Source: a virus. From it: a stretch of 59,755 nt of DNA. Below the pieces are notes generated by a model. That model made no database searches and was not told where the DNA came from. It saw only the letters and a list, made by a program, of their open reading frames with translations. A program made the position numbers and the translations under genes. The stretch spans positions 1 through 59,755 of IMG/VR virus record IMGVR_UViG_3300042924_007750. The stretch is one strand, 5' to 3'. Of the stretch, positions 16,246 to 54,766 are shown in pieces (position 1 is the stretch's first letter; every line of letters begins with the position of its first letter).

Positions 16246-16246
16246 T

Positions 16247-19726: not shown

Positions 19727-19727
19727 A

Positions 19728-20516
19728 ATGGTTAGATTAGTCAAAACTATAAGGCAAGAATGGGAAGTGAGGGGCTATTACTCGTATTTGGGTGAAGCTG
19801 TTATTGAAATCATGTGGGCAAAACAAAAATTTCCTGGAGAGGAAATTAAAGTTTTTTTTGATTTAAGAAATATTCATCATTACAAACAAGACAATTTATT
19901 TGACGTTTGTTTTGAACAAGACCATGAAGACTATAATGAATATAGAAATGAATACATTAACATTGAAAGTCTAAATTCTGAAATACTACTCAACCATTAT
20001 GATTTAACAATTTTTCCGCAGGATATTAGAGAACTTTCAGAACCAATCATCAAAGACTATTTTTGTTTAAAACCTAAATTGTCGGCTGAGTTAGAAAGAA
20101 GACTTCAGTTGATTGATTTGGAAAATACAATATCAGTTCATAGACGCGATACTGACATGAAAATTGGGCATGGAATAACCGCGCCAGTCCTTCAACAATT
20201 TTATTCAATAATTGACGAAGGTAATTATACCAATATTTTTGTAATGTCTGACAACAAACCAGACCTAGACCTTTTTGTTAAGAAATATTCAAATAGAGTT
20301 ATTTCATTTGAGGAAGATACTACAAGTACTGATATCAATTACCCATATTTTCTCATAGGGGGGACTGGACCTGAAGAAATGCAAAAACACATTGAAAATT
20401 TAACACTCAACACTATTATCTTGAGTAAAACAAAAAAATTGATTTGTAGTAAGTCAAATTTATCAACTTTTGCAATTCTTGCTAACCCTAAACTAGAATA
20501 TATTAAATTAAATTAA
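19728..20516 (+). CDS. Fucosyltransferase-like GT-B protein with HRRD motif
   Basis: A 262-residue protein. SVHRRDTDMKIGHG (H138-R-R-D141) resembles the H-x-R-R-x-D donor-binding motif of GT23/NodZ and GT11-type fucosyltransferases. Next come IFVMSDNKPDLDLF and ICSKSNLSTFAILAN, which correspond to the S-D and S-x-S/T-F segments of the same superfamily. It is probably a third GDP-deoxysugar-using transferase, but overall similarity is weak and family assignment is tentative. It starts 1 bp after the previous stop. Confidence 0.6.
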   Translation: MVRLVKTIRQEWEVRGYYSYLGEAVIEIMWAKQKFPGEEIKVFFDLRNIHHYKQDNLFDVCFEQDHEDYNEYRNEYINIESLNSEILLNHYDLTIFPQDIRELSEPIIKDYFCLKPKLSAELERRLQLIDLENTISVHRRDTDMKIGHGITAPVLQQFYSIIDEGNYTNIFVMSDNKPDLDLFVKKYSNRVISFEEDTTSTDINYPYFLIGGTGPEEMQKHIENLTLNTIILSKTKKLICSKSNLSTFAILANPKLEYIKLN

Positions 20517-20521
20517 AAAAC

Positions 20522-21154
20522 ATGTACAACTCACAAATTGGGCAAGATAAATTCATAGATGAATTTTTTGAAAAAAAAGAAGGATTAACTTTCTTAGATA
20601 TTGGTGCTCACGATGGAGTTTCAATTTCTAACACCTTTTTTTTAGAAAAGGAAAGAAACTGGAACGGAATCTGTATCGAAGCGCAACCCTCTGAATTTGA
20701 AAAATTGAAATCAAATAGGAAATGTATTTGTGTTAACGTTGCTGTTTCAAATTATAATGGAGAAACGGATTTTATTTATGTAGAAGGATATGCAAATATG
20801 CTATCAGGAATATCGGACGATTACAATCTTTCACACAAGCATAGAATTGAAAATGAAGTAAGAGCTTATGGTGGTGCTATTAATACCATCAAGGTTCCGG
20901 TTAAAACTCTCCAGAGCATACTAGATGACCATAACATACACAATATAGATTTCTGTTCAATTGACACTGAAGGCTCAGAATTTAATATTATCAAATCAAT
21001 TGACTTTGATAAAACAGAAATTAAGGTTTTTATAATCGAAAACAATTACGGCGAAAAAAATATAGAAAACTTTCTTATTGAAAAGGGATATGCTCTCTAT
21101 AAAAAAATCGAATGGGACGATGTTTTTGTAAAACAAAAATATATTAATAATTAA
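20522..21154 (+). CDS. FkbM-family SAM-dependent methyltransferase
   Basis: A 210-residue protein. SAM-binding motif LTFLDIGAHDGVSISNT near residue 22, NGICIEAQPSEFEKL, CVNVAVSNYNGETDF and the FkbM signature IDFCSIDTEGSEFNIIKSI. FkbM enzymes O-methylate natural products and sugars; in polysaccharide clusters they commonly tailor glycans. Second methyltransferase in the block, unrelated in sequence to the CmcI-like one. Confidence 0.88.
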   Translation: MYNSQIGQDKFIDEFFEKKEGLTFLDIGAHDGVSISNTFFLEKERNWNGICIEAQPSEFEKLKSNRKCICVNVAVSNYNGETDFIYVEGYANMLSGISDDYNLSHKHRIENEVRAYGGAINTIKVPVKTLQSILDDHNIHNIDFCSIDTEGSEFNIIKSIDFDKTEIKVFIIENNYGEKNIENFLIEKGYALYKKIEWDDVFVKQKYINN

Positions 21155-21156
21155 TA

Positions 21157-22137
21157 ATGGAACAAAAAAAAGCCCTTATTACAGGAATAAATGGTCAGGA
21201 CGGGTCCTACCTTGCAGAATTTTTATTGACAAAAGGATATCAAGTTCATGGAACATTGAAAAGAAATTCTGTGAGCGAAAATCAAACTGCAAGACTAGAT
21301 AGTATTTTTCATAAAATAACTTTGCATTATGCGGACTTAACCGATTTATCTTCGTTGATTTCTGTTATCCAAAAAATTCAACCTGACGAAATTTACAATT
21401 TAGCCGCACAATCGCATGTTAGAATTTCTTTTGACCAACCAATTTATACTGCTCAAGTTACAGGTTTGGGAACCCTTAATTTATTAGAAGCTGTTAGGCT
21501 GCTTAATCCTAAAATAAAAATTTACCAAGCCTCTTCATCTGAAATGTTTGGTAACTCAATCGATGCTGATGGATTTCAAAGGGAAACTACACCAATGACA
21601 CCAGTATCGCCTTACGGATGTGCTAAGGTTTTTTCATACAACATTTGCAAAAACTACAGAAATTCGTACAACATGTTTATATCAAATGGGATTTTATTTA
21701 ACCATGAATCACCAAGAAGGGGAACTAATTTTGTAACCAACAAAGTTGTCAAAGAAGCTGTAAAAATCAAATACGGGATTTCTTCTGAATTAAGACTTGG
21801 AAATCTAGATGCAACAAGGGACTGGGGTCATGCTAAAGATTATGTGGAGGCTATGTGGCTAATCTTGCAAGAGGAAAATCCTGATGATTTTGTTTGTTCA
21901 ACAGGTATTTCGCATTCTGTAAAAGAATTGTGTGAATACACCTTTTCTAAACTTGGCTTAAATTACCAGGACTGGGTGAAATTGGATGAGAAGTTTCTTA
22001 GACCGGAAGAATTACATGACTTAAAAGGAGATTCATCTAAATTGAAAAAAGTTACCAAGTGGAGTCCCAAGTACACGTTTGAAACAATGATTGATGAAAT
22101 GATAGAATATTGGCTTGAATTCTATAATAAAAAATGA
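21157..22137 (+). CDS. gmd: GDP-mannose 4,6-dehydratase
   Basis: A 326-residue extended SDR. ALITGINGQDGSYLAEFL binds NADP, YNLAAQSHVRISFDQP and QASSSEMFGN (catalytic Ser and Glu) are diagnostic, and the active pair is SPYGCAKVF (Y153, K157). FNHESPRRGTNFVTNKV is the family fingerprint. It converts GDP-D-mannose to GDP-4-keto-6-deoxy-D-mannose, the shared precursor of GDP-fucose, GDP-colitose and GDP-rhamnose. No mannose-1-phosphate guanylyltransferase or phosphomannomutase is clearly present, so GDP-mannose probably comes from the host. Confidence 0.96.
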   Translation: MEQKKALITGINGQDGSYLAEFLLTKGYQVHGTLKRNSVSENQTARLDSIFHKITLHYADLTDLSSLISVIQKIQPDEIYNLAAQSHVRISFDQPIYTAQVTGLGTLNLLEAVRLLNPKIKIYQASSSEMFGNSIDADGFQRETTPMTPVSPYGCAKVFSYNICKNYRNSYNMFISNGILFNHESPRRGTNFVTNKVVKEAVKIKYGISSELRLGNLDATRDWGHAKDYVEAMWLILQEENPDDFVCSTGISHSVKELCEYTFSKLGLNYQDWVKLDEKFLRPEELHDLKGDSSKLKKVTKWSPKYTFETMIDEMIEYWLEFYNKK

Positions 22138-22574
22138 TTAAACACTACATTTCACATCGAGGAAACGTCGATGGTAAAATTAAAAACATAGAGAATTCTC
22201 CAGATTATGTCCAAAGAGCTTTGTCTTTGGGTTACGAAGTTGAAATAGATGTTTGGTTCGTTGATGGCTCATTTTATTTGGGCCACGACGAGCCGCTTTA
22301 TTTGGTACAAGAATCTTTTTTAGAAAATGAAAATTTTTGGTGTCATGCAAAGAACGAAGAGGCTTTTAATAAAATGATGGTAAACTCTAACATTCATTGT
22401 TTCTGGCACCAGACAGATGATTATACTTTGACATCAAAAGGTATACCCTGGGTTTTCCCAGGTAAAAAAGTTCATAATAATAGTATTTGGGTTTTACCCG
22501 AAAATACAATTTATAAGAACATCATGATAAATTGTTTGGGTATTTGTTCCGATTATATTTCACAATACAAATGA
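22134..22574 (+). CDS. GDPD-like phosphodiesterase-fold protein
   Basis: A 146-residue protein resembling the N-terminal part of glycerophosphodiester phosphodiesterases: ISHRGNVDGK (H, R), YEVEIDVWFVDG (E-x-D metal site) and FYLGHDEPLY (H). It is shorter than the usual ~240-residue barrel, ending with a KNIMINCLGICSDY strand. Proteins of this short type recur in polysaccharide clusters. Whether it is catalytic is unknown. It overlaps gmd by 4 bp and the next gene by 4 bp (ATGA). Confidence 0.65.
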   Translation: MIKHYISHRGNVDGKIKNIENSPDYVQRALSLGYEVEIDVWFVDGSFYLGHDEPLYLVQESFLENENFWCHAKNEEAFNKMMVNSNIHCFWHQTDDYTLTSKGIPWVFPGKKVHNNSIWVLPENTIYKNIMINCLGICSDYISQYK

Positions 22575-23935
22575 TTAAGTTAATTATCTTTGATTTGGAT
22601 GGGGTTTTAATTGAAGCAAAACAATTTCATTATGAAGCTTTGAATGATGCCTTGATTAATCATGCACCAAACTGCGTAATTTCTTGGAATGAGCATTTGT
22701 CAAAGTATGATGGACTGAAAACCAAACAAAAATTGGCCATGCTTACCAATGACAAAGGACTTGACATCAAACTCCACAAAACCATTTGGGAAGAAAAACA
22801 AAAGATTACAAATGAAAAATTAAGAACAATAACCCCCAATTCTAATCTAACCACTTTATTAAAAAAACTCTCTGAGGATGGATTCAAAATAGCGTGTTGC
22901 AGCAATTCAATAAGAAAGACTGTTTTAACAGTTCTAGCCAAATTAGAAATCATAGAATATTTTGACCAAATCCTTTCCAACGAAGATGTGAAAAATAGCA
23001 AACCGCATCCGGAAATTTACTGGAAAGTAATTTCAGAGATGGGTGTTATCGCAGAAGAAACATTAATAGTTGAGGATTCACCTTATGGACTTTTAGCCGC
23101 ATCTAGAACTCATGCCCCTATACTGAGAGTTTCATCTCCAAAAGATGTTACCATAGAAAATCTCTATGGAAAATTAAAAGATTTAAATACGAAGTTTAAA
23201 ATGAAGAAACCCAAATGGACCGATGAAAAACTAAACGTTTTGATTCCAATGGCGGGAGCTGGTTCAAGATTTGAAAAAGCTGGTTTTACATTCCCTAAAC
23301 CGCTTATTGATGTTGAGGGGGACCCTATGATTAAATTGGTCACAGAGAACTTGAATCTACGAGCAAACTTTATTTACATAGTTCAAAAATCCCACCGGGA
23401 AAAATATAACCTTGATACATTGCTTAATCTAATATCCCCCAACTGTAAAATCGTTGAGGTTGATGGTCTTACAGAAGGTGCTGCGTGCACAACCTTATTA
23501 GCTAAAGAATTTATTGACAACGACAATCCATTGGTTATGGCAAATTCGGACCAGTATATTGAATGGGACTCCAATGAGTTTATGTATAAGATGATGGAAA
23601 CCAATTGTGATGGGGGGATAGTTACTTTCAAATCTACTCACCCTAAATGGTCTTTTGCTAAGGTTAATGAAAATGGTCTAGTCAGTGAAGTAGCTGAGAA
23701 AAATCCCATTTCTGACATTGCCACAGTCGGAATATACTACTGGAATAGGGGGGCTGATTATGTAAAGTATGCTCAGCAAATGATTGAAAAAAATATAAGG
23801 GTAAATAACGAGTTTTATGTGTGCCCAGTATTCAACGAAGCAATAGGCGATGGAAAAGAAATTAGAACCTTTGAAATCCAAAAAATGATGGGTCTTGGAA
23901 CCCCAGAGGATTTAACAACTTATTTAAGGCGATAA
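22571..23935 (+). CDS. HAD phosphatase fused to sugar nucleotidyltransferase
   Basis: A 454-residue fusion. Residues 1-210 are a HAD hydrolase: IIFDLDGVLIEAK (D8, D10), CCSNSIRKTV, NSKPHPEIYW, VEDSPYGLLAA. Residues about 220-454 are a nucleotidyltransferase: LIPMAGAGSRFEKAGFTFPK (227-234 is the G-x-G-x-R loop) and PLVMANSDQYIEWD. It could remove a phosphate in one domain and activate a sugar 1-phosphate with NTP in the other; the sugar is unknown. Start at 22571 (MIKLIIFDLDG) shares ATGA with the previous stop, preferred over 22532. Last gene of the main sugar block. Confidence 0.85.
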   Translation: MIKLIIFDLDGVLIEAKQFHYEALNDALINHAPNCVISWNEHLSKYDGLKTKQKLAMLTNDKGLDIKLHKTIWEEKQKITNEKLRTITPNSNLTTLLKKLSEDGFKIACCSNSIRKTVLTVLAKLEIIEYFDQILSNEDVKNSKPHPEIYWKVISEMGVIAEETLIVEDSPYGLLAASRTHAPILRVSSPKDVTIENLYGKLKDLNTKFKMKKPKWTDEKLNVLIPMAGAGSRFEKAGFTFPKPLIDVEGDPMIKLVTENLNLRANFIYIVQKSHREKYNLDTLLNLISPNCKIVEVDGLTEGAACTTLLAKEFIDNDNPLVMANSDQYIEWDSNEFMYKMMETNCDGGIVTFKSTHPKWSFAKVNENGLVSEVAEKNPISDIATVGIYYWNRGADYVKYAQQMIEKNIRVNNEFYVCPVFNEAIGDGKEIRTFEIQKMMGLGTPEDLTTYLRR

Positions 23936-24372: not shown

Positions 24373-25098
24373 ATGAGAAGAAAACCATCTCCAACACCTT
24401 CCTACCTGGTGCAGGAAAATCCAAGAACTAAAAAAGAAATTATTCAATCTATATTGAAGAAAAAAACTAAGGAAAAGTTCTTGTCTGAAAGTCAAAAAGA
24501 ATATTACAACAAACTTCAGGAAGCTCAAATTACAATATGTTCCGGACCTGCGGGTGTTGGTAAAAGTTATATTGCGATGAAAGCTGCAATTGATTTATTG
24601 GTTGACCCAAGTACTCCTTATGAAAAAATCATTATTGTAAGACCGGCAGTAGAAGCTGAAGAAAAATTGGGTTCTCTTCCAGGCAACGTCGAAGAAAAGT
24701 TAGACCCTTACATTTTCCCAACCTATTATCTGTTGAACAAAATTATTGGTAAGGACGCTAGAGAAAAACTAAAAGAAATGGAAGTTATTGAAGTCTTTGC
24801 TCTTGCATATATGCGAGGAATGAATATTGATAATTCAATTCTGATATTTGAAGAAGCTCAAAACTCTACACCCAACCAAATGAAATTGTTGTTAACAAGA
24901 ATTGGATTCAACTCTAAATTCTTTATATCTGGAGATTTGGAACAAACTGATAGATACAAGGATAAAACCCACTCAGGGCTTTATGATGCGATTAATAGAT
25001 TTAACAACGTAAAACAAATCATGTGTCATGAATTTTCTCAAGGTGACGTTGTACGTAATCCGTTAATTACAAAAATTCTAGAAAAATACGAAGAATGA
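24373..25098 (+). CDS. phoH: PhoH-like ATPase
   Basis: A 241-residue P-loop protein. Walker A GPAGVGKSYIAMKAA, IIIVRPAVEAEEKLGSLPG (PhoH family signature), Walker B ILIFEEAQNSTPNQMKLLLT, and sensor FFISGDLEQTD. PhoH-like proteins are widespread in large phages; they are ATPases with proposed RNA helicase or RNA-binding roles. An N-terminal 45-residue charged extension precedes the ATPase. The stop overlaps the next start (ATGA). Confidence 0.93.
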   Translation: MRRKPSPTPSYLVQENPRTKKEIIQSILKKKTKEKFLSESQKEYYNKLQEAQITICSGPAGVGKSYIAMKAAIDLLVDPSTPYEKIIIVRPAVEAEEKLGSLPGNVEEKLDPYIFPTYYLLNKIIGKDAREKLKEMEVIEVFALAYMRGMNIDNSILIFEEAQNSTPNQMKLLLTRIGFNSKFFISGDLEQTDRYKDKTHSGLYDAINRFNNVKQIMCHEFSQGDVVRNPLITKILEKYEE

Positions 25099-36284: not shown

Positions 36285-36497
36285 ATGCAAGAGTTTGTAC
36301 CCTTTCCCCTTTTTGATAGAATCAATATTCAAAGTTCTGAGGATTTTGAAAAGTTAATCGATGAGCTAAATGTTGGCCAAGCAAACTTTATAATTCAAGT
36401 TGCTTTGGAAAAAGCATATAGTTCTGGAATATTTACTTTGAGTGAATCTGAAATTTTGTCTAAAGCTCTCAGATTAAAAAATAATAAGGAGGAATAA
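36285..36497 (+). CDS. Small hypothetical protein
   Basis: A 70-residue acidic helical protein (FVPFPLFDRINIQSSEDFEK, then FIIQVALEKAYSSGIFTLSE). Divergent from the DUF5872-like gene with a 32-bp gap and followed by another small gene 13 bp on. No family recognised. Confidence 0.6.
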   Translation: MQEFVPFPLFDRINIQSSEDFEKLIDELNVGQANFIIQVALEKAYSSGIFTLSESEILSKALRLKNNKEE

Positions 36498-36510: not shown

Positions 36511-36696
36511 ATGAGTCCGGAAGAAATAAGTAAAAGGATTGTTGAAGGAGAATATAATCTAACACAAGTCGTAAGAAACGGCCACAAGCCATATTACGGA
36601 GATGAATACGAAACAATAAGGACAGAGGTGGGTGTTTTACGATGTTTATATTTTGGAAATGAATCAAAATATTGTAATCCAAGATATAAGAAATAA
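36511..36696 (+). CDS. Small hypothetical protein
   Basis: A 61-residue protein (SPEEISKRIVEGEYNLTQVV, then GHKPYYGDEYETIRTEVG). It ends directly at a strong hairpin terminator, which supports it as the last gene of the plus-strand unit. Function unknown. Confidence 0.6.
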   Translation: MSPEEISKRIVEGEYNLTQVVRNGHKPYYGDEYETIRTEVGVLRCLYFGNESKYCNPRYKK

Positions 36697-36739: not shown

Positions 36740-38533
36740 TTATCTCAATTCTCTCAAGTCGAACGTTCTAACACCATCAACTGTGATACGACCGTAGAAA
36801 CGGTTGTTTACAACCTTCTTAGCGTATCTAGTCATGATACCCTTGATAGGTGTAAAGTTGAATGGGTTATACATCGTAGGAGTGAGCTGTAAAGGTACGT
36901 ATGGAGCGTAGATGTATCCAGTGTCAAGTAACGAAGTACCTTTGTGTCCTAACAACACCTGGTTTGCAGGGAAGTAAGGGTCACGGTAAACTTGATATCT
37001 ACCAGCCAAAGTACCAACTCTTTCGATACCCATGTTGTATTGGTCTTGCTCAGGAGCTGCGTTTGATACGTGGAAGTACTCCAAGTCATCAAAGATTGCA
37101 GAAACCTCAGAAGATACAACAATCCAGTTTGCGCCACCTCTTAGAGTTGACTTGTGGATTTGTGCAGAGATTTGGTTGATTGCAGTGATAAGAGTCTGGT
37201 TCCAGTCCTTTTGAGTGTAAGGAGTTGTACCAGCAGAGAATCTCTTCCATCCGTTGTAGTCCCAACGAAGGTTCCAAGATGCAGCTTTTCTCAAGTCTCT
37301 TAAGATTTCGCGGTCGATTTCAGCAGCCACTTGCTCAGACAATAAAGCTGTCAATTCAGCTTCAGCGTCGATGTTGTGGAATGCTGCAACGTCTTGCGCC
37401 ATTTCTGGAGACCATTGAGCTCTAAGTTTTCTTTCAGTAACCGAAACAGTCACAGACTGAAGGTCGAAAGAAACTTCACCAATTTTATCTTCGAATTCAA
37501 GATTCTTATAGATTCTGTAAGTTGCAGTGAATGCCTGACTGTTAGCAGTTGTTGAAGAGAATGTAGAACCTGTGTAGCCGTCAAGTGATGAATCACCACA
37601 AGAAATACATACAGGAACTTGCAAATCAACTTCAAGATAGATTTTACCTTCAGCATCACAAACATTGTAGTAAGTACCACCATCAGTCAAACTGTTAGGG
37701 AATACCAACGTAGTGTCTTGACCGTAGTCAACGATACCTTTACCGTATCTTTGTGTAACAACTCTAAACAAGTAATTGTTATTTACGTTAGCAGATGTGT
37801 AAACGTTTCCAGCAGCACCACGGATTTGAAGGTCAGTCAAGAATTCTTCAGTATCCATTGGTTGACCGTTAGGTCCGATAAGTTGACCAGCTCCAGCAGA
37901 AGCAAAGCCAGACATCATGATAAGAACTTTTCTGTAGTTATCCACACCGTAAGCTGAAACAACCAATTCAGAACCTACCCATGCAACAGTTCTAGTTCCA
38001 GCAGTAATTGCTGAGAAAGAACCTTTAGAGTAGTCATAAAGACCTGGAGGGTCCAAAGCTGGTTCGTTACCTTCGTAGAATCTATCGTAAAGGTCTTTTT
38101 GAGTGTTATAGTCATAACCACTGTTTGGAACTTGACCTTCTGCTGCGTTTGGTGCTCCGTAAGGTGCCCAGTGCTCGTTATCATTTGCTCCAGTGTAAGA
38201 CTGAATGTTAGGTACGAAGTAGAACAACTTACCGATAGGAAGGTTCATTGCTTGTACAGAAACGATGTCGTTAGCCAAAAGCTTAGAGAAAACTCTACGT
38301 ACGATTGGGAAAACAACAGTTTCGAATGAACCTGAGTCAGCTGTTGATGATGCTTCGTTAATCAAATATGACGCTTGGTTTTCATACAACTGCGCGATAT
38401 TTTCTTTAAGGTGACCGTTAAGTCCTTCGAGGAAACCTAACTTGTCCCATTTGTTAATTGTATCTTCTTTGATAACTTTAAGGTGCTTAAGACCGATGTT
38501 ACCAACAAGACCACTTTCTAATAATGCTCCCAT
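36740..38533 (-). CDS. Major capsid protein (gp23-like)
   Basis: A 597-residue HK97-fold capsid protein of the T4 gp23 type, longer than T4 gp23 (521). The N-terminal region (residues 1-60, to ASYLINE) is a propeptide; I58-N59-E60 before A61 fits gp21 cleavage, compared with E65 in T4. The body has typical gp23 segments: FETVVFPIVRRVFSKLLAND, AQDVAAFHNIDAEAELTALL, SEQVAAEIDREILRDLRKAA, and the C-terminal TRYAKKVVNNRFYGRITVDG. It forms the head lattice after prohead maturation. The scaffold and protease genes lie upstream on the same strand. Confidence 0.93.
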   Translation of the reverse strand: MGALLESGLVGNIGLKHLKVIKEDTINKWDKLGFLEGLNGHLKENIAQLYENQASYLINEASSTADSGSFETVVFPIVRRVFSKLLANDIVSVQAMNLPIGKLFYFVPNIQSYTGANDNEHWAPYGAPNAAEGQVPNSGYDYNTQKDLYDRFYEGNEPALDPPGLYDYSKGSFSAITAGTRTVAWVGSELVVSAYGVDNYRKVLIMMSGFASAGAGQLIGPNGQPMDTEEFLTDLQIRGAAGNVYTSANVNNNYLFRVVTQRYGKGIVDYGQDTTLVFPNSLTDGGTYYNVCDAEGKIYLEVDLQVPVCISCGDSSLDGYTGSTFSSTTANSQAFTATYRIYKNLEFEDKIGEVSFDLQSVTVSVTERKLRAQWSPEMAQDVAAFHNIDAEAELTALLSEQVAAEIDREILRDLRKAASWNLRWDYNGWKRFSAGTTPYTQKDWNQTLITAINQISAQIHKSTLRGGANWIVVSSEVSAIFDDLEYFHVSNAAPEQDQYNMGIERVGTLAGRYQVYRDPYFPANQVLLGHKGTSLLDTGYIYAPYVPLQLTPTMYNPFNFTPIKGIMTRYAKKVVNNRFYGRITVDGVRTFDLRELR

Positions 38534-38566: not shown

Positions 38567-40111
38567 TTACAATTTAGACATCAAATCCTTAATTCTTAAA
38601 TATTGAGGATTTTCGTATGTCTTAGACTCTATAAGAGTAGTTGCAGAACCAGAAGTTTTTGTTGTGTTCAACTGTCTCTCAACGTTTTCAGAAATGTTCT
38701 TCGTTTCAACGTGTGCAAGTTCATCTTTAAGAGTTTTGTAGAGTTGCTTTGATTCTTTTAGAGATTCTACCGAATCAAATCTTCTCAAGATGTTAATTTT
38801 TTCTTTCTTGGTAGTGGAATGCTCTGTGAACAATCTTGTAGCATAAGCTAAGTTAGAATTAAATACAGCAACTTCATTAAGTTTTTCTCTGAACACGTTC
38901 AAAGCTTTTCTATATTCTTCATTCTTTTCTCTGAGCATTTTCAACTCAACATCGATTGATTCTACTTTAACACCATTATCACCATAAACATAATTTCTGT
39001 TGTTTGTGATACCTTTTCTTAAACCTCTACCTTCTTTCGAACCCATACCATAAGTTCTAGCAGCTTCTTTTGTTTCTTCTTTGGTTTCATAGTCTTTTTT
39101 ACCAGGATGTGTTTTTGACTTGTCACCTTTGTTACCACCAACTTTTCCTTCGTAGTCTTTAAAGTGTCCATCTTTACCCTCACCAGCTTTCTTTTCAACA
39201 CCGTCTACTTTCTTACGTCTGTATTCGTGTTTCTTAGAATCTTCTTCCATTTCACCTTCTTTGAACTCAAATTTTGCTTTACCAGTTCCCATAGTTTTAG
39301 GTCCAGCCTTTTTGTGGTCATCAAATCCTTTCTTTGGTAATGTACTATCGTACCCAAACTTAGGTTTGCCCATTCCAACGCCTTTTGGTTTTACAGTCAT
39401 TTTAGCTTCGGATAGGTCGTAGTCCTCGCCCATCATGTCCGAATCTTCATCGTCCATCATGTCTTCAAGTTCTTCTTCCATTTCTTCCTCATCCATTTCT
39501 ATTTCGTACATGATTTCGTCTTCTGACTCACCTTCCATATACAAAGCGTCTAACACAGCTTCTAAATCCGCATCTTCTTGCATATCTAGTTCTGTAAAAT
39601 CCATTCCGTATTCCATCATGTCTTCACCTTCTTCCATTTCTTCGTCCATTTCCATCATGTCTTCGTCTTCCTCCATTTCGGATTCTTCAAGTTTCACGAT
39701 GTACTCAACGTCTTCATTTTCGTCGGTTAAATGAATATCATCACCATCTTTTACCACAACAATTCCATCTTCTGGACTCATCGCTTTAAAAGCTTTAATA
39801 ACTTCATCATCAGACATGCTGGTCATATCAATAGTTTCCTCCGAATCATCGAAGTCCATATCAATACCCATGTCTAGTTCATTAGAGTCTTCCATATCTT
39901 CACTTTCATCACCCATGTCTAAATCCATGTCCAATTCTGTGTCGATTTCAACCTCGTCTTCTTCTTGTTCAGAAAGAGATTCCTTTACTAACTGACTGAT
40001 TTCTTCCTTCATAGTAGAAGCAAGTATTCCTTTTGCGTTCTCGGCAATTACCTCTTCAACATTTTTCATTTGAATGAGTGCCTCTTCAACTAAATTTTTA
40101 GTTTCTTGCAT
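38567..40111 (-). CDS. Prohead core scaffold protein (gp22-like)
   Basis: A 514-residue protein, about a third of which is Asp/Glu/Met-rich (residues ~50-240), then a Lys/Gly-rich part, then a C-terminal helical part (VFNSNLAYATRLFTEHSTTK, then ILRRFDSVESLKESKQLY) like the C-terminal region of gp22-type scaffolds. Length is about twice T4 gp22 (269). It would form the inner core around which capsid assembles and then be degraded by the prohead protease; L-S-E at the ESLSEQ site and others could be cut. Directly upstream of the capsid gene. Confidence 0.82.
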   Translation of the reverse strand: MQETKNLVEEALIQMKNVEEVIAENAKGILASTMKEEISQLVKESLSEQEEDEVEIDTELDMDLDMGDESEDMEDSNELDMGIDMDFDDSEETIDMTSMSDDEVIKAFKAMSPEDGIVVVKDGDDIHLTDENEDVEYIVKLEESEMEEDEDMMEMDEEMEEGEDMMEYGMDFTELDMQEDADLEAVLDALYMEGESEDEIMYEIEMDEEEMEEELEDMMDDEDSDMMGEDYDLSEAKMTVKPKGVGMGKPKFGYDSTLPKKGFDDHKKAGPKTMGTGKAKFEFKEGEMEEDSKKHEYRRKKVDGVEKKAGEGKDGHFKDYEGKVGGNKGDKSKTHPGKKDYETKEETKEAARTYGMGSKEGRGLRKGITNNRNYVYGDNGVKVESIDVELKMLREKNEEYRKALNVFREKLNEVAVFNSNLAYATRLFTEHSTTKKEKINILRRFDSVESLKESKQLYKTLKDELAHVETKNISENVERQLNTTKTSGSATTLIESKTYENPQYLRIKDLMSKL

Positions 40112-40455: not shown

Positions 40456-41175
40456 TTAACGATTTAAATAATCGGTTAATTTTTTCATTAAATCAACTGA
40501 CTTACCCATTCCAGAGTCAGAAATTTTTTTATTTTTTTCTTCATCCAGGTTTTCTTCATACATACTTCTTTCTTCAGGGTTACCAAAAAGGTATGCTCCA
40601 GGTGTTGAAGGCGAGGATACTAGGTCAAAACAGATTAGTTCAAAATCATCTTGAACTTCATTTTGCTCACCAATTTTTTTCAATGAACCAACCCCCCTTG
40701 AAGACACACCCATAGTAACGCCTTGGCGCATAAGGTTAGCTGCGATGTCTCCTTTTGTTGAAACAATACCGCTCTCATGAAAACCAGGTGACGTAAGAAG
40801 CTTTAATTTACCCATAAGGATATGTCCGTCCCACCAAATGTCTGTGATGATGTGAGCAACTCTATCAAGGTCAATTAAGGATGATTCTGGGTGGTTAAGC
40901 TCAGAGGTTGACAAACCTTTTTTAATCGCAGTTTTGTATCTATCAGCCTCACGTTTTAAAATCCTCTCAGGATAGACACGACCATTACGATTTGGTACTC
41001 CATATTTTTGAAGTACGGCATAAAATTCAAATGGATTTCTGTAATCCATATCTTTTTTTTCCGAAAGGAATGCCTCGTTAAGTGGGTCTTTTGGTGAAAC
41101 ATACCCAGCATCCATTTCAACAAGGATACCTTTACCGCTCTCTCGGGGGCCTAGTATACGTAAATCTTTCATCAT
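40456..41175 (-). CDS. Prohead maturation protease (gp21-like)
   Basis: A 239-residue serine protease of the herpesvirus-assemblin-like fold. Diagnostic pieces: STSELNHPESSLIDLDRVAH (catalytic His region), WDGHILMGKLKLLTS, and GVTMGVSSRGVGSLKKI (nucleophile Ser). It cleaves scaffold, capsid and internal proteins in the prohead at I/L-x-E sites. The candidate sites in the capsid protein and in the leader-bearing small proteins of this window fit it. Start at ATG 41175 lies behind TATTTATC. Confidence 0.9.
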   Translation of the reverse strand: MMKDLRILGPRESGKGILVEMDAGYVSPKDPLNEAFLSEKKDMDYRNPFEFYAVLQKYGVPNRNGRVYPERILKREADRYKTAIKKGLSTSELNHPESSLIDLDRVAHIITDIWWDGHILMGKLKLLTSPGFHESGIVSTKGDIAANLMRQGVTMGVSSRGVGSLKKIGEQNEVQDDFELICFDLVSSPSTPGAYLFGNPEERSMYEENLDEEKNKKISDSGMGKSVDLMKKLTDYLNR

Positions 41176-41199: not shown

Positions 41200-41652
41200 C
41201 TAGTTGATAGTTTTTACTTTTGATTTTTCTTTAGTGGAACTAAATGTGAAATAATCGTTTTTTATAATACAATCCCGGTAAATTTCTTTAATAATTTTTT
41301 TAATAGCTTCTTTGAGTTGTGAGCCCTTGAAATCCATTTCTTGTTTTGCAAACAAATTAATTTCTAAATTCATAAATGATTTTTTGTTGAGCTGGATACC
41401 ACTAGTTCTTAAATCCAGGTCGACAATAAATTTTTCAGAAAACAATTCTTGGTTAATACTATGGTAAACAGAATGTTTTATATTTCGAGATAGATTTCCA
41501 ACAACACGCTCCCAATTTTCACTGTCTTGTTTTGGACAAACCCAAGTCTGGAGGTTAATGTACATGGACTTTAGGTTTTTTGAGTCTACGGTGCCGTATG
41601 ATGTTTTTAAGGATTCATATTGGTTTAATTTTACCGTTTTACCTTTCTTCAT
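41200..41652 (-). CDS. Hypothetical phage protein
   Basis: A 150-residue basic protein with alternating strand/helix pattern (MYINLQTWVCPKQDSENWER, KFIVDLDLRTSGIQLNKKSF, LKEAIKKIIKEIYRDCI). Located in the head module between gp21 and the bS21 gene. No motif recognised; a virion or assembly role is only positional inference. Confidence 0.6.
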   Translation of the reverse strand: MKKGKTVKLNQYESLKTSYGTVDSKNLKSMYINLQTWVCPKQDSENWERVVGNLSRNIKHSVYHSINQELFSEKFIVDLDLRTSGIQLNKKSFMNLEINLFAKQEMDFKGSQLKEAIKKIIKEIYRDCIIKNDYFTFSSTKEKSKVKTIN

Positions 41653-41729
41653 TTATATCAATATTGTAATATAATTTATTTTAATGAAAAAATAGCAAAC
41701 TTTTGAACAATTCCAAATATTTCTAATAT

Positions 41730-41915
41730 ATGCTAATTGTTTTTGTAAATAATAATATAGAAAAAGCCCTGAAACAGCTTAAGTCAAAGGTCATAAAAAC
41801 CAGACAAAATCAGCTACTTAATTCCAAAAAAGAATTTGTAAAAAAATCAGTGCAAAAACGCAACAACAAAATTAAAGCTTGTTATGTTGAGCAATTTAAG
41901 CGTCAAGAAGAATAG
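41730..41915 (+). CDS. rpsU: Ribosomal protein bS21 homologue
   Basis: A 61-residue basic protein, the usual bS21 length. Opening LIVFVNNNIEKALKQLKSKV matches the bS21 beta-strand plus first helix (V-x-x-N-x-x-E-x-A-L-x-x-x-K), and KKEFVKKSVQKRNNKIKACY matches the second helix (E-x-x-K-P/S-S-x-x-R-x-x-K). bS21 sits on the 30S head-platform near the anti-Shine-Dalgarno end of 16S rRNA and affects initiation. It is the only plus-strand gene inside the minus-strand head module, with 20 bp 3' overlap with its convergent neighbour. A phage copy could alter host ribosome initiation. Confidence 0.8.
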   Translation: MLIVFVNNNIEKALKQLKSKVIKTRQNQLLNSKKEFVKKSVQKRNNKIKACYVEQFKRQEE

Positions 41916-42603
41916 ATTCCTCTAACTTCTTAAGCCTAACATAATTGATTTGGTCGTATTTTTCTGATTCTATTTTACCGATAGTTTCAGTAATCTTTGT
42001 TTTCAATTCAGAATCGGTTTGCTTATCAGAAAGTACCTTCAATTTATTGACCGCAGATTCTTTTAGATTGTCAAACTCACTTTCTAAATCTGAATTGTTT
42101 GTTGCCAAAATATGGAAAATTTCTTTTCTCGAAGATTCATCCAATCCTTCAACATACCTTGATAATGTTTGGTTTGCAATTGAAACCATGGATTTGATAG
42201 GAATTTTAGGAGTATCTTTTACTTGGCTCTTGCTTTCCATTAACTTAGAAATAATTGCTTTTTTCGAAACAACACGCTCCTTGATGTCTACTTTGTTGAA
42301 ATAAACAATGTTGTCAATATTTTCATAGATGTTTTTAGATTTTTCTCCATTTTTAGGTAATGAAGTTTTTTCTAGAAGATGTCTGATAACATTGATGGCT
42401 TCATCTAAAAACTCTCTTGCATCACTTTCGGTTAAACCTTGTGGCGAAGATAAGTCATCGTAGATTGAATAAATCTTTGAAAAAGATTTATTGGACAAAA
42501 CATTATGTTTGAATTCTTTAAGTGTTTGCTTGAAAGAATAGGTATCCTTGTAGGATTCTACCAGGTTTTTTTCGATGATGGATTTTATTTGTCCGAAAGT
42601 CAT
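41896..42603 (-). CDS. Helical phage head-module protein of unknown function
   Basis: A 235-residue helical charged protein; start taken at ATG 42603 (MTFGQIKSIIEKNLVESY) because the in-frame GTG 42621 lies only 1 nt from a TATTTATT element. Helices with heptad character (SVSIANQTLSRYV type segment, then LKESAVNKLKVLSDKQTDSE). The first 18 residues resemble a leader with L-V-E before S. It directly follows the portal gene on the minus strand. Function unknown. Confidence 0.65.
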   Translation of the reverse strand: MTFGQIKSIIEKNLVESYKDTYSFKQTLKEFKHNVLSNKSFSKIYSIYDDLSSPQGLTESDAREFLDEAINVIRHLLEKTSLPKNGEKSKNIYENIDNIVYFNKVDIKERVVSKKAIISKLMESKSQVKDTPKIPIKSMVSIANQTLSRYVEGLDESSRKEIFHILATNNSDLESEFDNLKESAVNKLKVLSDKQTDSELKTKITETIGKIESEKYDQINYVRLKKLEESILLDA

Positions 42604-42630: not shown

Positions 42631-44493
42631 TTATGAATTTAACAACTTGTCCAACTCCTCCTCTATTTTACCTAAACTTTGTTGAGCAATCCCTAGATTC
42701 AAATATTTGCTCCCATAAAGGTCTGTCTCAATTAGTATGTTCATATCCCTATTTTTTACAGATTCAGGGGTTATTTCACCTTCCTCTGGTGCAGGAGCAC
42801 CACCAGCTTCAGGGCCTCCAGCAGGTGGCCCACCAGCGAGTTCGCCACCTAAATCAGGTAATGCTCCCCCACCTCCAAAGGAAGCCGCAGCGGGTTCACT
42901 AACTTCTCCCGGAGGAGCAGCAGGTGCACCGCCTTCACCGGGCTTGTTACCATATAAGGCATCAAGCTGGTCAAATATACCAGTTTTAGAAATTGTGGCT
43001 GGAGTGTTTTTGAGTTCCTCACCGATTGCTCTTTCCATTCTTTGCTGCAGAAGGTCTGTTCTGATTTCATCATCAGACCAGTTAAAGATATGTTTCTTAG
43101 CCCAAGTTGATGATGATGGTTGAATGCCGTTACCAGGGTCTGAAACCAAATCACGATAAAGCAAAACTTTTTCTTTCCAAATATCAACCTTAAGCAAGTC
43201 AGCTTGAGTGGATGGGTTGGTAAGACCAAGAGTAAAGTTTGAAATCTCTTCTTCAAATCCTAGCAAGAACAGGTGAACAATAGCAATCTTGTTAAGTTCT
43301 TGAATCATGGATTTTTGAATCCTGTTGATGGTACGAGCAAAACGAATATCTTGCAACGCTAGATTTTTACCATCTCCAACAACTTCTTCAAATCCAAGGA
43401 AAGCCTTTGGAATACGAAGTGCTGTTACCAGTTTTTTCTGAATGTATTCAATGTCAGCAATCTCCGAAAGGTTTTGAGCTCCTGGAAGAGTGTCAATTGG
43501 GCTTGGTTGTGCTGGGTCACGAACTGGAATGAAATAATCTTGGTCAACAGCCATTTGGTTAAATCGCATGTCAACGTTACCAGTTTTTGAATCAACAATT
43601 TGTTCTCTCTTGAACTTGTTGGCAACACGTTGTACATACGCTTCAACATCATCGTCAGCCATGTTTCCAACATAAACTTTAAATATTCTTCTCTCAGGAG
43701 CACGTGATGTACGATAAATCAACATCGCATCCTCAGATAAAAGAAGTTGTTTCCAGATTCTTCTTGATTTTTCAAGCATAGAAGTACCATAAGGAAGTTT
43801 TCTATCATCACCTAAAAGTCTAAAGTGAGCAATTTCCCATGGTTGGAATTCCATGTTTTGTGTTTTCCAAGTAAATCTCAACCCCTTATCGTCGGTATTT
43901 TGAGGAACACCGACCGAAGAATTTCTTGTAGCCAAACCCTGTTCAAATCTTTCAACTTCAATGTTTGGTAATTGCTGACAACCAATAACACCCTTTTCTG
44001 GGTCCAATCTCATGTAAACAAAATTATCACCATACTTACAGGTGTTTCTTGTCCACATGGCTAAGTTGGTGTTGATATCCAATACGTTATTGAACAAATC
44101 AACAAGAACTGATTTAATTCTTTTTGACTCAGAATAAACCTGCAGAATTATACCGTCCTCATTAGGTGTTGTAGATTCTTCAGCATAAATGTCCAACGCA
44201 GCAGAAATCTCAGGAGTGTATTCCATCGACTCGTAGTCGTAATAAGACGCTAATCTGTTTGGCTCGTAATAGATTGCCTGAGTGTAAAGGTTGTTTTCAA
44301 CCTTAGCAAACTGGTTGGCTAAATAAAAAGATTGTTTGGCTTGTAATTTCTCTCTTTCATATTCTGCCTTATCAGTTGTTCTAAGAAGTTCTTTCTTATC
44401 TAACTTATAAACAGGGAAATCTTGATTCATCAAAGCATCAGGACCCAGAGCCCTGCTTAATCTTTGCCAAACCGTCATACTTCTATTCTCCAT
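42631..44493 (-). CDS. Portal protein (gp20-like)
   Basis: A 620-residue portal protein. Diagnostic gp20-like stretches: YYDYESMEYTPEISAALDIY, AEESTTPNEDG, TRNTCKYGDNFVYMRLDPEK, EIAHFRLLGDDRKLPYGTSM, LEKSRRIWKQLLLSEDAMLI, YRTSRAPERRIFKVYVGNM, IPKAFLGFEE. A Gly/Ala/Pro-rich low-complexity insert of about 70 residues (GGAPAAPPGEVSEPAAASFG onward) lies near the C-terminus, unusual for T4 gp20. The portal dodecamer nucleates prohead assembly and is the DNA channel. Confidence 0.94.
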   Translation of the reverse strand: MENRSMTVWQRLSRALGPDALMNQDFPVYKLDKKELLRTTDKAEYEREKLQAKQSFYLANQFAKVENNLYTQAIYYEPNRLASYYDYESMEYTPEISAALDIYAEESTTPNEDGIILQVYSESKRIKSVLVDLFNNVLDINTNLAMWTRNTCKYGDNFVYMRLDPEKGVIGCQQLPNIEVERFEQGLATRNSSVGVPQNTDDKGLRFTWKTQNMEFQPWEIAHFRLLGDDRKLPYGTSMLEKSRRIWKQLLLSEDAMLIYRTSRAPERRIFKVYVGNMADDDVEAYVQRVANKFKREQIVDSKTGNVDMRFNQMAVDQDYFIPVRDPAQPSPIDTLPGAQNLSEIADIEYIQKKLVTALRIPKAFLGFEEVVGDGKNLALQDIRFARTINRIQKSMIQELNKIAIVHLFLLGFEEEISNFTLGLTNPSTQADLLKVDIWKEKVLLYRDLVSDPGNGIQPSSSTWAKKHIFNWSDDEIRTDLLQQRMERAIGEELKNTPATISKTGIFDQLDALYGNKPGEGGAPAAPPGEVSEPAAASFGGGGALPDLGGELAGGPPAGGPEAGGAPAPEEGEITPESVKNRDMNILIETDLYGSKYLNLGIAQQSLGKIEEELDKLLNS

Positions 44494-44533: not shown

Positions 44534-46294
44534 TTACCTACCGAATAACCAACCGTATTTCTCATAATCAGCCCTTGATGCTGAGTAGTTTCTTTGATTT
44601 GGCATTCCTGGTTGTGAAAACTGAGGTAATGCCGGATTGAAATATTCTGACTTTTCTTTATTTTCACTAACAACCGTGCTCCAAGAGTTAAGCATAGCTT
44701 TAGTGTGATTAACAACTTTTACTAATGATGGAAAAGCGGCTTCAGCAACATACAATGCCATTGAAATTGACATAATACAGTCATCATGGTGTCCCTTCTG
44801 GTGGTCAGGTCTTCCATTGATATAAACAAATGTTCCCATTTCATTAATCAAACGATTAGACCTAATTTTAAAATCATGACGTACAGCTTCTTCTAGGGAA
44901 GCAATAATCTGAACACGCTTGTTGTTGAAATTAATTCCCGGAATTTTTTCTTTGATTTTTGGGTCGTATTTCCATTTATTGCTCATATCAACACCATCAT
45001 AATAGAAACTTTCGTAACCTAACTCCTGAAGTTTTCTAGCCGTCGCAACACCCATTCCACCAGTCAAATCAATAACGCAAAGAGCACTATACATAATACC
45101 CCACTTGTATGCAATTTCGGCTAATGTATCGGGGGGGAGTTTTCCAACAAATTCTAATACTTGTTCTCTTGTATCAAAATCAATGATTTCAATACAAGAA
45201 AAATCTTCAGAATCACCTCTAGAAACGTCAATACCCATAACATACTTGTGTCCATTTTCTGGCTCTTTCCAAATCCAAAGTTGACCTCCAACTAGTTTTG
45301 CTTCAGGCTCTTTAACGTCGTTTTTAACTATTGTCTGCAGCATTTGCGCATCAAAAACGTTATCACCAGAACCCAAGAAATTACATTCTAATTCTTGCGC
45401 GACCTTTCTGCGGTCATACTTTAACTTTTTTACCATGCTCTCGAACCAAGAAGAACAAGGTTTATACCCGTCTTCGATGTATTTGTGTAAAGTTGTAAGT
45501 TGCCTCTCTCTTCTATCTTCACCAGATAAATCCAGAATAACATCTTTGGGATATTCTTCTTTATTCAGTAGATAATGAACGAGGTCATTAGTTTTGACCA
45601 TATACAAATCTTTTGTATAACGAGGGTCTCTATACCAATACATTTCCGTAATCTTGAAATCATTCATGTTACGCAACGCTTGGTCGTAAATTTCGTAGTA
45701 AATTGGGTCAAACCCGTTGGGAGTTGAAATCACAATCACTTTACCTCCGGTAGATAAAGATGCCATACAAGCTGCCCAGAAATCACTATCAGCTTCGATA
45801 AAGGCAGCCTCGTCAAAAATAAGAGTTGTTGGTGTGTAACCTCTAAGTGCGTCCTTTGAGGTTGCTACAGCTTTTACCTCACACCCATTTGAAAGTTTAA
45901 AGTGTCTTGCTGAGTTTTTTTCCGGTGAAAACCCGATACCAACCCATTGTGGCCATTGCTCAGTAAACCCTCTAATCTTATTCGCAAATTCAACCGAGGT
46001 ATCAAGTTTGTTTGCAATAATGAGGACTTTTTCTGGTTTTTCTTTTCTGGCAAAAGCAAGTCTTTTACTCGCCCAAGCAGCTGTAACGGTAGATACACCT
46101 GCCTGACGATATTTCAATGCAATGTTTTCATTATATTCCTCATAATCCTGAACTAACTGAACTTGGTCTTGAAATAGCTCCAAAGGAACATAACGTGAAA
46201 CAGTGTTGTCGTAAGTTTGGAGATAAGTTTTCAGAGCATAAGGTGTGCTTTTCATGCACTTCTTATACTCAATTATTACTTGTTCTTTTGTCAT
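44534..46294 (-). CDS. Large terminase subunit (gp17-like)
   Basis: A 586-residue ATPase/nuclease. N-terminal ATPase: ENIALKYRQAGVSTVTAAWA (Walker A-like, Q64-A-G-V-S-T), TPTTLIFDEAAFIEADSDFW (Walker B DE), and the coupling motif VIVISTPNGFDPIYYE. C-terminal RNase H-like nuclease: KYVMGIDVSRGDSEDFSCIE, LCVIDLTGGMGVATARKL, and GHHDDCIMSISMALYVAEA. It pumps DNA into the prohead through the portal and cuts concatemers. Close to T4 gp17 length (610). Confidence 0.95.
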   Translation of the reverse strand: MTKEQVIIEYKKCMKSTPYALKTYLQTYDNTVSRYVPLELFQDQVQLVQDYEEYNENIALKYRQAGVSTVTAAWASKRLAFARKEKPEKVLIIANKLDTSVEFANKIRGFTEQWPQWVGIGFSPEKNSARHFKLSNGCEVKAVATSKDALRGYTPTTLIFDEAAFIEADSDFWAACMASLSTGGKVIVISTPNGFDPIYYEIYDQALRNMNDFKITEMYWYRDPRYTKDLYMVKTNDLVHYLLNKEEYPKDVILDLSGEDRRERQLTTLHKYIEDGYKPCSSWFESMVKKLKYDRRKVAQELECNFLGSGDNVFDAQMLQTIVKNDVKEPEAKLVGGQLWIWKEPENGHKYVMGIDVSRGDSEDFSCIEIIDFDTREQVLEFVGKLPPDTLAEIAYKWGIMYSALCVIDLTGGMGVATARKLQELGYESFYYDGVDMSNKWKYDPKIKEKIPGINFNNKRVQIIASLEEAVRHDFKIRSNRLINEMGTFVYINGRPDHQKGHHDDCIMSISMALYVAEAAFPSLVKVVNHTKAMLNSWSTVVSENKEKSEYFNPALPQFSQPGMPNQRNYSASRADYEKYGWLFGR

Positions 46295-52762: not shown

Positions 52763-54766
52763 ATGAGCGAAACTATGGACGACGACGACGATAAGGCCCT
52801 CGGTAGGAAGAAACCCTCTTCCGATTCTAGAACTCCTGTTCTGGATAATTTTTCCCGTGACCTTAATAAACTTGCTGAGCAAGGAAAGCTCGACCCAGTA
52901 ATTGGTCGAGAAAAAGAAATCGTGCGCATTGCACAGATTCTCTCTCGTAGAAAAAAGAACAACCCTATCATCCTAGGTGAACCGGGTTGTGGTAAAACCG
53001 CAATTGTGGAGGGTCTTGCGAGCTTGATTGTAAATGGAAGCTGTCCCAAGAACCTTCTTGATAAGCGCATCGTCACCCTTGACCTTACAGCAGTTGTTGC
53101 TGGTACAAAATACCGTGGTCAGTTTGAGGAGCGTCTTAAGGTTATCTTGGAGGAACTTTCCCAAAACCCCAACATCGTCATCTTCATTGATGAAATCCAT
53201 ACCTTAATTGGTTCGGGTAACTCTTCCGGTAGCCTAGATGGTTCCAACATCTTTAAACCTGCTTTGGCTAGAGGGGAAATCCAGTGCATCGGCGCTACCA
53301 CGTTGGATGAATACCGCAAATCATTTGAAAAGGACGGAGCTTTGGAGCGTCGCTTCCAAAAGGTAATGGTGGACCCATCCACCGTTGCTGAAACCATTCA
53401 AATTCTCACCAACATCCGAGACCGCTACGAGGCATTTCACAAGGTATCGTACTCTGATGAAGTCATCGAGCTGTGTGTAAAGCTCGCTGACCGTTACATC
53501 ACCGACCGAGAATTCCCTGACAAAGCATTTGATATCCTTGATGAAGTGGGAGCTCGCAGTCAGACCGAGCAGAAGATTCCAGAGATAATTGAGGAGCTTA
53601 AACATAAAGCTGCTGATATTAAGCTTCAGAAGATGGAAGTTGTAAAAAAGCAGAACTACGAAGAAGCTGCGGCACTTCGTGATAAAGAACGGAATATTCT
53701 TGTAAAACTTCAAAATGAGAAGAAGAAGTTCGAACAAGAGTCCGCAACCCATCGTGTTCCAATTACCGTGGAGCAGGTATACGATGTCGTATCTAATATG
53801 ACCAAAATCCCGGTGAGCAAAATGTCAATTGATGACACCAACGCTCTTATCAATATGGACAAGGTTCTTATGAGCAAGGTCATTGGTCAAGATGAAGCGG
53901 TCTCCAAGATTGTTAAATCAATCCGTAGAAACCGCATCGGAATTAAAGACCCCAACCGTCCGATTGGTTCGTTTATATTCCTTGGTTCAACGGGAGTTGG
54001 TAAGACTCACCTGGCAAAGCAAATTGCAAAGGAAATGTTTGGTTCGGAAAGCGCTCTTATCCGCGTTGACATGAGCGAATACCAGGAGAAGCACACAATT
54101 TCCCGATTGGTTGGAGCGCCTCCGGGATATGTGGGTTACGAAGAAGGTGGACAGCTGACCGAACAAGTCAAAAACAAACCTTATGCTGTAATCCTATTCG
54201 ATGAAGTTGAAAAGGCACACAAGGACATCTTTTCGATTTTGCTCCAAATTCTAGATGATGGTCACGCAACCGATTCATTGGGACGCAAAATCAACTTCAA
54301 GAACACCTTGATTATCATGACCACAAACCTTGGGGTTAAGAAACTACAGGATTTTGGTTCCGGAATCGGTTTTTCTTCCAACAAGTATTCAAACGAGGAG
54401 GCAAAAAAACAAATTTTGATGAAGGAAATGAAGAACTTCTTCTCACCTGAATTCATCAACCGTATCGACGATACAATTGTTTTTGAAACTTTATCACAAG
54501 AAAATATCCAACAAATCGTTGGTTTGGAATTAGAAAAGCTTTCCAAGCGTTTGGGTGAAATGAAATATAAGATTGTGATGGATAAAACTGTAACCGAATA
54601 CATCGCAAAAGTTGGATTCGACCAGGTTTATGGTGCACGTCCAATCAAGCGTGCCATCCAGGATAAAATCGAGGACTTCCTGTCCGAACTTATCCTAATT
54701 GGCAAACTCAAAGAAAACCGCAAATATACCATCAAGGTGGTGGACGAGCAGGTGAAAATCTCTTAA
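52763..54766 (+). CDS. Clp-family AAA+ unfoldase (ClpC/ClpA-like, no N-domain)
   Basis: A 667-residue double-AAA+ protein, start ATG 52763 (an in-frame TTG at 52739 lies in the promoter). D1 has IILGEPGCGKTAIVEG (Walker A) and IVIFIDEIHTLIG (Walker B); the linker has a UVR-like helix (KKQNYEEAAALRDKERNI); D2 has FLGSTGVGKTHLAKQIAKEM, VGAPPGYVGYEEGGQLTE and ILFDEVEKAHKDIF. SGIGFSSN aligns with the ClpP-contacting IGF/VGF loop, so ClpP binding is possible. The Clp-N domain is absent and replaced by an acidic tail. Codon use (CGC/CGT Arg) is richer in GC than neighbours. It would unfold proteins for ClpP or remodel complexes. Confidence 0.93.
   Translation: MSETMDDDDDKALGRKKPSSDSRTPVLDNFSRDLNKLAEQGKLDPVIGREKEIVRIAQILSRRKKNNPIILGEPGCGKTAIVEGLASLIVNGSCPKNLLDKRIVTLDLTAVVAGTKYRGQFEERLKVILEELSQNPNIVIFIDEIHTLIGSGNSSGSLDGSNIFKPALARGEIQCIGATTLDEYRKSFEKDGALERRFQKVMVDPSTVAETIQILTNIRDRYEAFHKVSYSDEVIELCVKLADRYITDREFPDKAFDILDEVGARSQTEQKIPEIIEELKHKAADIKLQKMEVVKKQNYEEAAALRDKERNILVKLQNEKKKFEQESATHRVPITVEQVYDVVSNMTKIPVSKMSIDDTNALINMDKVLMSKVIGQDEAVSKIVKSIRRNRIGIKDPNRPIGSFIFLGSTGVGKTHLAKQIAKEMFGSESALIRVDMSEYQEKHTISRLVGAPPGYVGYEEGGQLTEQVKNKPYAVILFDEVEKAHKDIFSILLQILDDGHATDSLGRKINFKNTLIIMTTNLGVKKLQDFGSGIGFSSNKYSNEEAKKQILMKEMKNFFSPEFINRIDDTIVFETLSQENIQQIVGLELEKLSKRLGEMKYKIVMDKTVTEYIAKVGFDQVYGARPIKRAIQDKIEDFLSELILIGKLKENRKYTIKVVDEQVKIS

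Follow-up and report, generated by a model that had tools for sequence, protein, structure and literature searches.

A bS21 gene lies within the phage head module

The window analysed here, 59,755 bases in length, is an entire IMG/VR record that is classed as linear and is probably a fragment of a larger genome. An open reading frame (ORF) check of the window located a gene for a 61-residue protein (MLIVFVNNNIEKALKQLKSKVIKTRQNQLLNSKKEFVKKSVQKRNNKIKACYVEQFKRQEE), running from ATG to TAG, flanked by the genes for prohead protease and portal and on the strand opposite to these two, the terminase large subunit (TerL) and the major capsid protein (MCP). The features of this neighbourhood are as follows:

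36740–38533, minus strand: MCP, Gp23 (PF07068, 7.5e-74)
38567–40111, minus strand: 514-aa protein between protease and MCP, in a conserved order
40456–41175, minus strand: prohead protease, Peptidase_S77 (PF03420, 3.2e-25; phrog_207, 2.1e-43)
41200–41652, minus strand: conserved 150-aa protein of unassigned function, the divergent neighbour of bS21, kept in relatives' loci
41730–41915, plus strand: phage bS21 (rpsU-like), 61 aa (PF01165; phmmer matches to 9i5v and 7jil; 146 homologous viral loci; two-helix model)
41896–42603, minus strand: 235-aa protein, apparent 'bS21_CN' counterpart, adjoining bS21 in nearly all loci
42631–44493, minus strand: portal protein, T4 gp20-like (PF07230, 7.9e-77)
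44534–46294, minus strand: TerL (PF03237, 9.4e-15; phrog_2, 3.3e-40)

The minus-strand order around bS21 is thus MCP, the 514-aa protein, a DUF4494 protein, prohead protease, the 150-aa protein, (bS21), the 235-aa protein, portal and TerL. The preliminary description had bS21 as the sole gene of the head module on the plus strand. This holds for the span between TerL and MCP, but fails if the module is taken to include two more conserved plus-strand ORFs of unassigned function directly past MCP (36285–36497 and 36511–36696). A Pfam profile search with the 514-aa protein gave no family match; judged by T4 gene order, it would occupy the scaffold position.

The bS21 gene and the convergent 235-aa gene overlap tail to tail by 20 nt, and a search for a terminator-like site around this overlap found none. 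The AlphaFold model of the 235-aa protein is all-helical (pLDDT 82); it had no fold match in the PDB and, in a viral library, matched uncharacterised phage proteins only. The gene stands in the place of the prohead-core genes of T4, and on the simpler reading of the model and position its product is a probable head-assembly protein.

Elsewhere in the window, a long plus-strand run (10599–23935) forms a surface-sugar cassette with glycosyltransferases, two DegT aminotransferases, a GDP-mannose dehydratase, an epimerase, fucosyltransferase-like genes and an FkbM methyltransferase. A PhoH-like ATPase and a ClpA/B-type AAA+ ATPase lie at 24373–25098 and 52763–54766, as in published bS21 phages.

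The phage protein is a divergent bS21 under purifying selection

The protein matched the Pfam family Ribosomal_S21 (PF01165) with 34.7 bits (cut-off 27; E 1.5e-8), confirming the bS21 homologue reported from the first inspection at exactly these coordinates. Its score against NCBIfam TIGR00030, 21.2, falls under the stricter cut-off of 28.95, which marks it as a divergent member of the family. The top solved relatives found by phmmer were the Bacteroidota-type bS21 chains 9i5v_9 (6e-6) and 7jil_z (4e-5). AlphaFold modelled two helices, at residues 10–34 and 39–60 (pLDDT 88.7), and a PDB fold search with this model gave just three matches, each a small-subunit ribosome chain and none significant.

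The start, length and residues of the protein are conserved across 146 viral loci that encode 85 distinct proteins, and three pairs with unsaturated dS gave dN/dS values of 0.17, 0.25 and 0.23, indicating purifying selection. We restricted this estimate to close, ungapped pairs and discarded a pooled pN/pS of 0.87, which had ignored alignment gaps across indel-bearing sequences. On these sequence data the ORF is a genuine bS21 gene, a chance ORF being excluded by conservation and dN/dS. The strand opposite to the operon and the tail-to-tail overlap would also fit a relic or antisense stretch that is carried in the late operon and not expressed as sense mRNA. The dN/dS of 0.17–0.25, the 85 conserved distinct proteins and a dedicated leader element 4 nt from the ATG (see below) have already largely refuted that reading, which we find scarcely credible. 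The identity of the protein as bS21, together with its membership in a known phage group, is in our judgement practically certain.

bS21 is syntenic among relatives and was probably lost in one sublineage

A search of viral contigs with bS21 returned 80 loci, 76 of which share the gene order of the window and the opposite orientation of bS21. The reciprocal question was addressed with the portal protein: among its 80 loci, bS21 occupied the same slot in 66 of the 68 that could be judged, two had none and 12 could not be judged. Both flanking genes are retained in the two bS21-less loci (L134 and L152), and the emptied slot (L134:6830–6969; L152:12150–12288) is a shorter spacer containing a hairpin with a T tract, which resembles a terminator of the 235-aa gene. 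The rest of these two contigs, both of which are partial, yielded no bS21. The portal tree places them in a single small clade within the bS21 carriers, with moderate support in that region, suggesting loss. Together these sequences point to a sublineage that secondarily lost bS21 at this slot and kept its neighbour bS21_CN. Loss in one sublineage, seen on partial contigs, implies that bS21 is not strictly essential. It also weakens the idea that the 235-aa protein acts together with bS21, since the neighbour was kept without it; the tie between the two is probably positional. Related bS21 genes also occur in other phage contexts, at four loci whose head genes are unlike those of the window (L040, L045, L049 and L053).

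The preliminary description had also placed the protein in a Bacteroidota setting, and this was borne out: the 80 nearest cellular homologues all came from Bacteroidota or Chlorobiota, mostly Flavobacteriia. In a bS21 tree the 60 phage proteins group together, with one long-branched cellular sequence (MED-G17) inside; with 64 columns, the tree is too weak for dating the acquisition or counting transfers. Flavobacterium phages were listed top in the TerL comparison, at 27.5% identity. Kinship of bS21 and this TerL listing, the two lines considered, suggest a Bacteroidota host. The window is best explained as a 59.8-kb fragment of a large freshwater-type, T4-like jumbo-type myovirus of Bacteroidota.

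The ASD-hiding residue is kept and the N-terminal helix carries a phage signature

In Flavobacterium johnsoniae, Tyr54 of bS21 stacks on A1534 and helps to hide the anti-Shine–Dalgarno (ASD) sequence, according to Chen et al. 2022 (PMC9723584). Tyr52 of the window protein aligns to this position and sits in the C-terminal helix (39–60), so that the link to ASD hiding drawn in the preliminary description is upheld at the level of the residue. Each of the 60 distinct phage proteins aligned has an aromatic residue at position 54 (52 Tyr, 7 His and 1 Phe), as do 62/62 cellular ones. The best explanation of this alignment is that the C-terminal half of phage bS21 keeps the ASD-hiding contact through Tyr52.

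Three positions in the N-terminal helix separate phage from cellular proteins. Position 21 is Ser in 51/60 phage proteins versus Arg in 50/62 cellular ones, position 23 is Val in 59/60 versus Phe in 54/62, and position 28 is Gln in every phage protein versus Thr, Val or Ala in the cellular set. Compared with F. johnsoniae bS21 (PDB 7JIL; PMC9976891), with which it shares family, two-helix layout, Bacteroidota lineage and the Tyr54 equivalent, the window protein is about 40% identical and two residues shorter in the N-terminal loop, and its helix signature reads KSKVIKTRQNQ where the host type has KRKFDKTGT.

These residues bear on a role outside the ribosome, as a small basic RNA- or DNA-binding protein or a component packaged in the head. 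The place of the gene amid head genes would suit such a role, and extra-ribosomal or virion functions are among the possibilities raised by Chen et al. A generic basic protein, however, would need neither Tyr52 nor the invariant K/L/S/R/A pattern of bS21, both of which are retained, and we consider this role very improbable.

The bS21 leader lacks the strong Shine–Dalgarno sequence of host rpsU

In F. johnsoniae, rpsU carries an extended Shine–Dalgarno (SD) sequence and is autoregulated by ribosomes without bS21; its translation rises on loss of bS21 or of the bS21 C-terminus, or with the Y54A substitution (PMC9976891). We scored leaders by their duplex with the 16S tail and called an SD strong below −8 kcal/mol. 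By this measure 54 of the 79 nearest cellular rpsU leaders have a strong SD, versus 1 of 69 distinct phage bS21 leaders, and the median duplex energies are −18.5 and −1.1 kcal/mol, respectively. The sole phage leader with an SD core belongs to L045, outside the syntenic group. At +1.9 kcal/mol, the window leader is devoid of the strong extended SD that serves as the autoregulation element of F. johnsoniae rpsU, and the phage gene should consequently escape the host bS21 feedback loop.

It had been proposed that a viral bS21 could favour phage mRNAs that lack an SD or are leaderless. As a discriminator, the first half of this proposal does not stand: Bacteroidia mRNAs already lack SDs (PMC9976891, PMC6847099) and the SD signal over the window genes was none above shuffles, so favouring SD-less mRNA cannot separate phage from host. 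Leader length and feedback on host rpsU therefore offer a sharper test than whether SD-less mRNAs win. The leaderless half gained indirect support from a promoter-like motif that lies 4–5 nt before the ATG of many genes and of bS21.

That host and phage mRNAs are both SD-less (PMC9976891) is also what would be expected if phage bS21 were equivalent to the host protein and simply stocked 30S subunits with a loosely bound protein once host rpsU is silent, with no selection among mRNAs. Conservation of the ASD-hiding residue and the C-terminal half agrees with such a plain supply, as does the place of bS21 among the exchangeable ribosomal proteins (PMC6375957). Equivalence does not, however, require an N-terminal phage signature fixed over 60 distinct proteins, and on balance we think it somewhat unlikely that supply is the whole function.

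A promoter-like motif precedes bS21 and other phage genes

Two conserved boxes lie in the intergenic region upstream of bS21:

41697–41704, plus strand: AAACTTTT, the more upstream box, conserved in bS21 leaders, role unassigned (alignment of 47 intergenic regions)
41718–41725, plus strand: TATTTCTA, promoter-like box, a variant of VTATTTAT, 4 nt upstream of the bS21 ATG

Of 85 distinct relatives, 54 show the downstream box as TATTTNTA, and in 44 of these it lies 4 nt from the ATG; the bS21 variant of the motif can be written TATTT[C/G]TA. The window box scores above the 99th percentile of background upstream regions, and 61 of 82 bS21 leaders exceed the 95th percentile, against about 15% of shuffled ones. 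This conserved leader, dedicated to bS21, is a separate line of evidence for a promoter of its own. The upstream box appears as TGTCAAAANTTTT in more distant relatives, with a spacing to the second box of 24–27. Considered by eye, it might be the −33 element of a host-type promoter for the divergent 150-aa gene. We rejected the pair of TGTCAAAA and TATTT as a second promoter class, as it precedes no other gene in three phage genomes.

Counted within 70 nt upstream of genes, VTATTTAT precedes 16 of the 70 window genes (0.9 expected), 42 of 171 genes in a 165-kb relative, G004 (2.6 expected), and 16 of 90 genes in G003 (1.4 expected). Sites in the window include 42631, 41195, 40135, 44531, 50990 and 51801 on the minus strand and 28591 and 54809 on the plus strand. 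Independently of gene calling, the distance from the motif to the first ATG past it peaks at 4 nt (15/105) and 14 nt (12/105), whereas seven control octamers gave 0–5 occurrences at 4 nt. Because the motif lies upstream of genes such as those for protease and portal, it would be a late promoter.

In F. johnsoniae, a distance of 4 or 5 nt separates the −7 element from the transcription start, and leaders exceed 10 nt in 87% of transcripts (PMC6847099). If the phage motif follows host geometry, the mRNAs of bS21 and of one class of late genes would be leaderless and the 14-nt class would have leaders near 10 nt. The motif geometry thus suggests that bS21 mRNA may be leaderless or short-leadered, although phage late promoters may place starts differently.

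A model for replacement of host bS21

We propose that a functional phage bS21 replaces the host copy late in infection and tunes initiation to late phage mRNAs; for this reading as a whole we estimate a probability of about 0.55. Produced within the head module from a promoter of its own, phage bS21 would most likely displace host bS21 from the 30S platform late in infection. Its mRNA-side N-terminal helix, with the phage-specific signature, would shift initiation in favour of the late phage mRNAs, which lack SDs and may often be leaderless or short-leadered. With no strong SD on its own mRNA, its synthesis would escape the host response to bS21 deficiency. By filling bS21-free ribosomes it would keep host rpsU repressed, and replacement would therefore be self-reinforcing.

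The steps differ in strength. By homology, incorporation of phage bS21 into ribosomes is likely, and a preference of such ribosomes for phage late mRNAs is a tentative proposal to which we give slightly less than an even chance. A wider version, in which the phage turns host ribosomes into specialists for mRNAs with short leaders or none, we consider unlikely. Late phage genes and bS21 would then be transcribed from VTATTTAT-type promoters with starts at the ATG or up to about 10 nt from it, in a host whose mRNAs nearly all carry leaders. Phage bS21 would leave the 16S tail hidden and, through its altered mRNA-side helix, give such mRNAs preference in initiation, and host rpsU would be silenced by the host SD feedback, which would not act on the phage gene. 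Phage-encoded bS21 is in any case one of the strongest candidates for a specialised ribosome made naturally by a virus.

The closest functional test counts against the proposed retuning. Mizuno et al. 2019 found that bS21 of pelagiphage HTVC008M enters E. coli ribosomes and cuts translation to about 5% (PMC6375957), with no redirection. Such ribosomes, about 5% active (PMC6375957), would be expected if incorporated phage bS21 mainly impaired host translation; alternatively it might evade a host translation block, and countering a Cellulophaga translation-stalling defence is suggested by Chen et al. (PMC9723584). The 5% figure, however, comes from a heterologous pairing, and a late gene beside capsid genes needs ongoing translation, so a role as poison or counter-defence appears improbable. 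The HTVC008M protein resembles that of the window in being phage-encoded, and ribosome entry (in E. coli) was shown for it (PMC6375957), but it is alphaproteobacterial and an unrelated acquisition, and host ribosomes there have no such ASD hiding.

Relation to published bS21 phages

The general hypothesis of ribosome substitution by phage bS21 was published between 2019 and 2022, and the window is a further member of the group that Chen et al. described. Their article reports this gene order in jumbo myoviruses with a predicted Bacteroidetes host, notes the aromatic residue, and puts forward the hypothesis of a phage bS21 that is incorporated into ribosomes and gives phage transcripts an advantage late in infection (PMC9723584). 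The window shares with its clades a–e the arrangement of TerL, portal, a hypothetical protein (bS21_CN), bS21 on the opposite strand, a second hypothetical protein, prohead protease and MCP, and with its phages PhoH, a Clp ATPase, sugar/LPS genes, an aromatic residue 54 and divergent residues 21, 23 and 28. The genomes given there are about 293–331 kb, compared with the 59.8-kb linear fragment studied here.

Chen et al. state that transcripts of bS21 and of the neighbour on the other strand are at closely matching levels and that the two 'may be transcribed together'; late bS21 expression rests on read mapping, with strand handling unmentioned in the text (PMC9723584). In the window the two genes are convergent and overlapping, which precludes a common sense transcript. 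Some of the published bS21 signal could stem from antisense read-through out of the neighbour, and the evidence for late bS21 transcription is possibly confounded by such reads.

Three features apparently go beyond the description by Chen et al.: the SD-less phage leaders set against those of the host, VTATTTAT with its spacing of 4–5 nt before the ATG, and a sublineage that lost bS21 and retained bS21_CN. A literature search of incomplete coverage returned no report of the SD contrast, the motif spacing or a bS21-less sublineage, and all three appear new.

Divergent bS21 copies were also seen on bacterial MAG contigs from Lutibacter (L220), Croceivirga (L227) and Bacteroidetes Ww118 (L226), and are possibly phage- or element-borne. 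The Lutibacter genome holds, in addition, a canonical bS21 copy with a strong SD (L213), whereas L220 itself has no strong SD.
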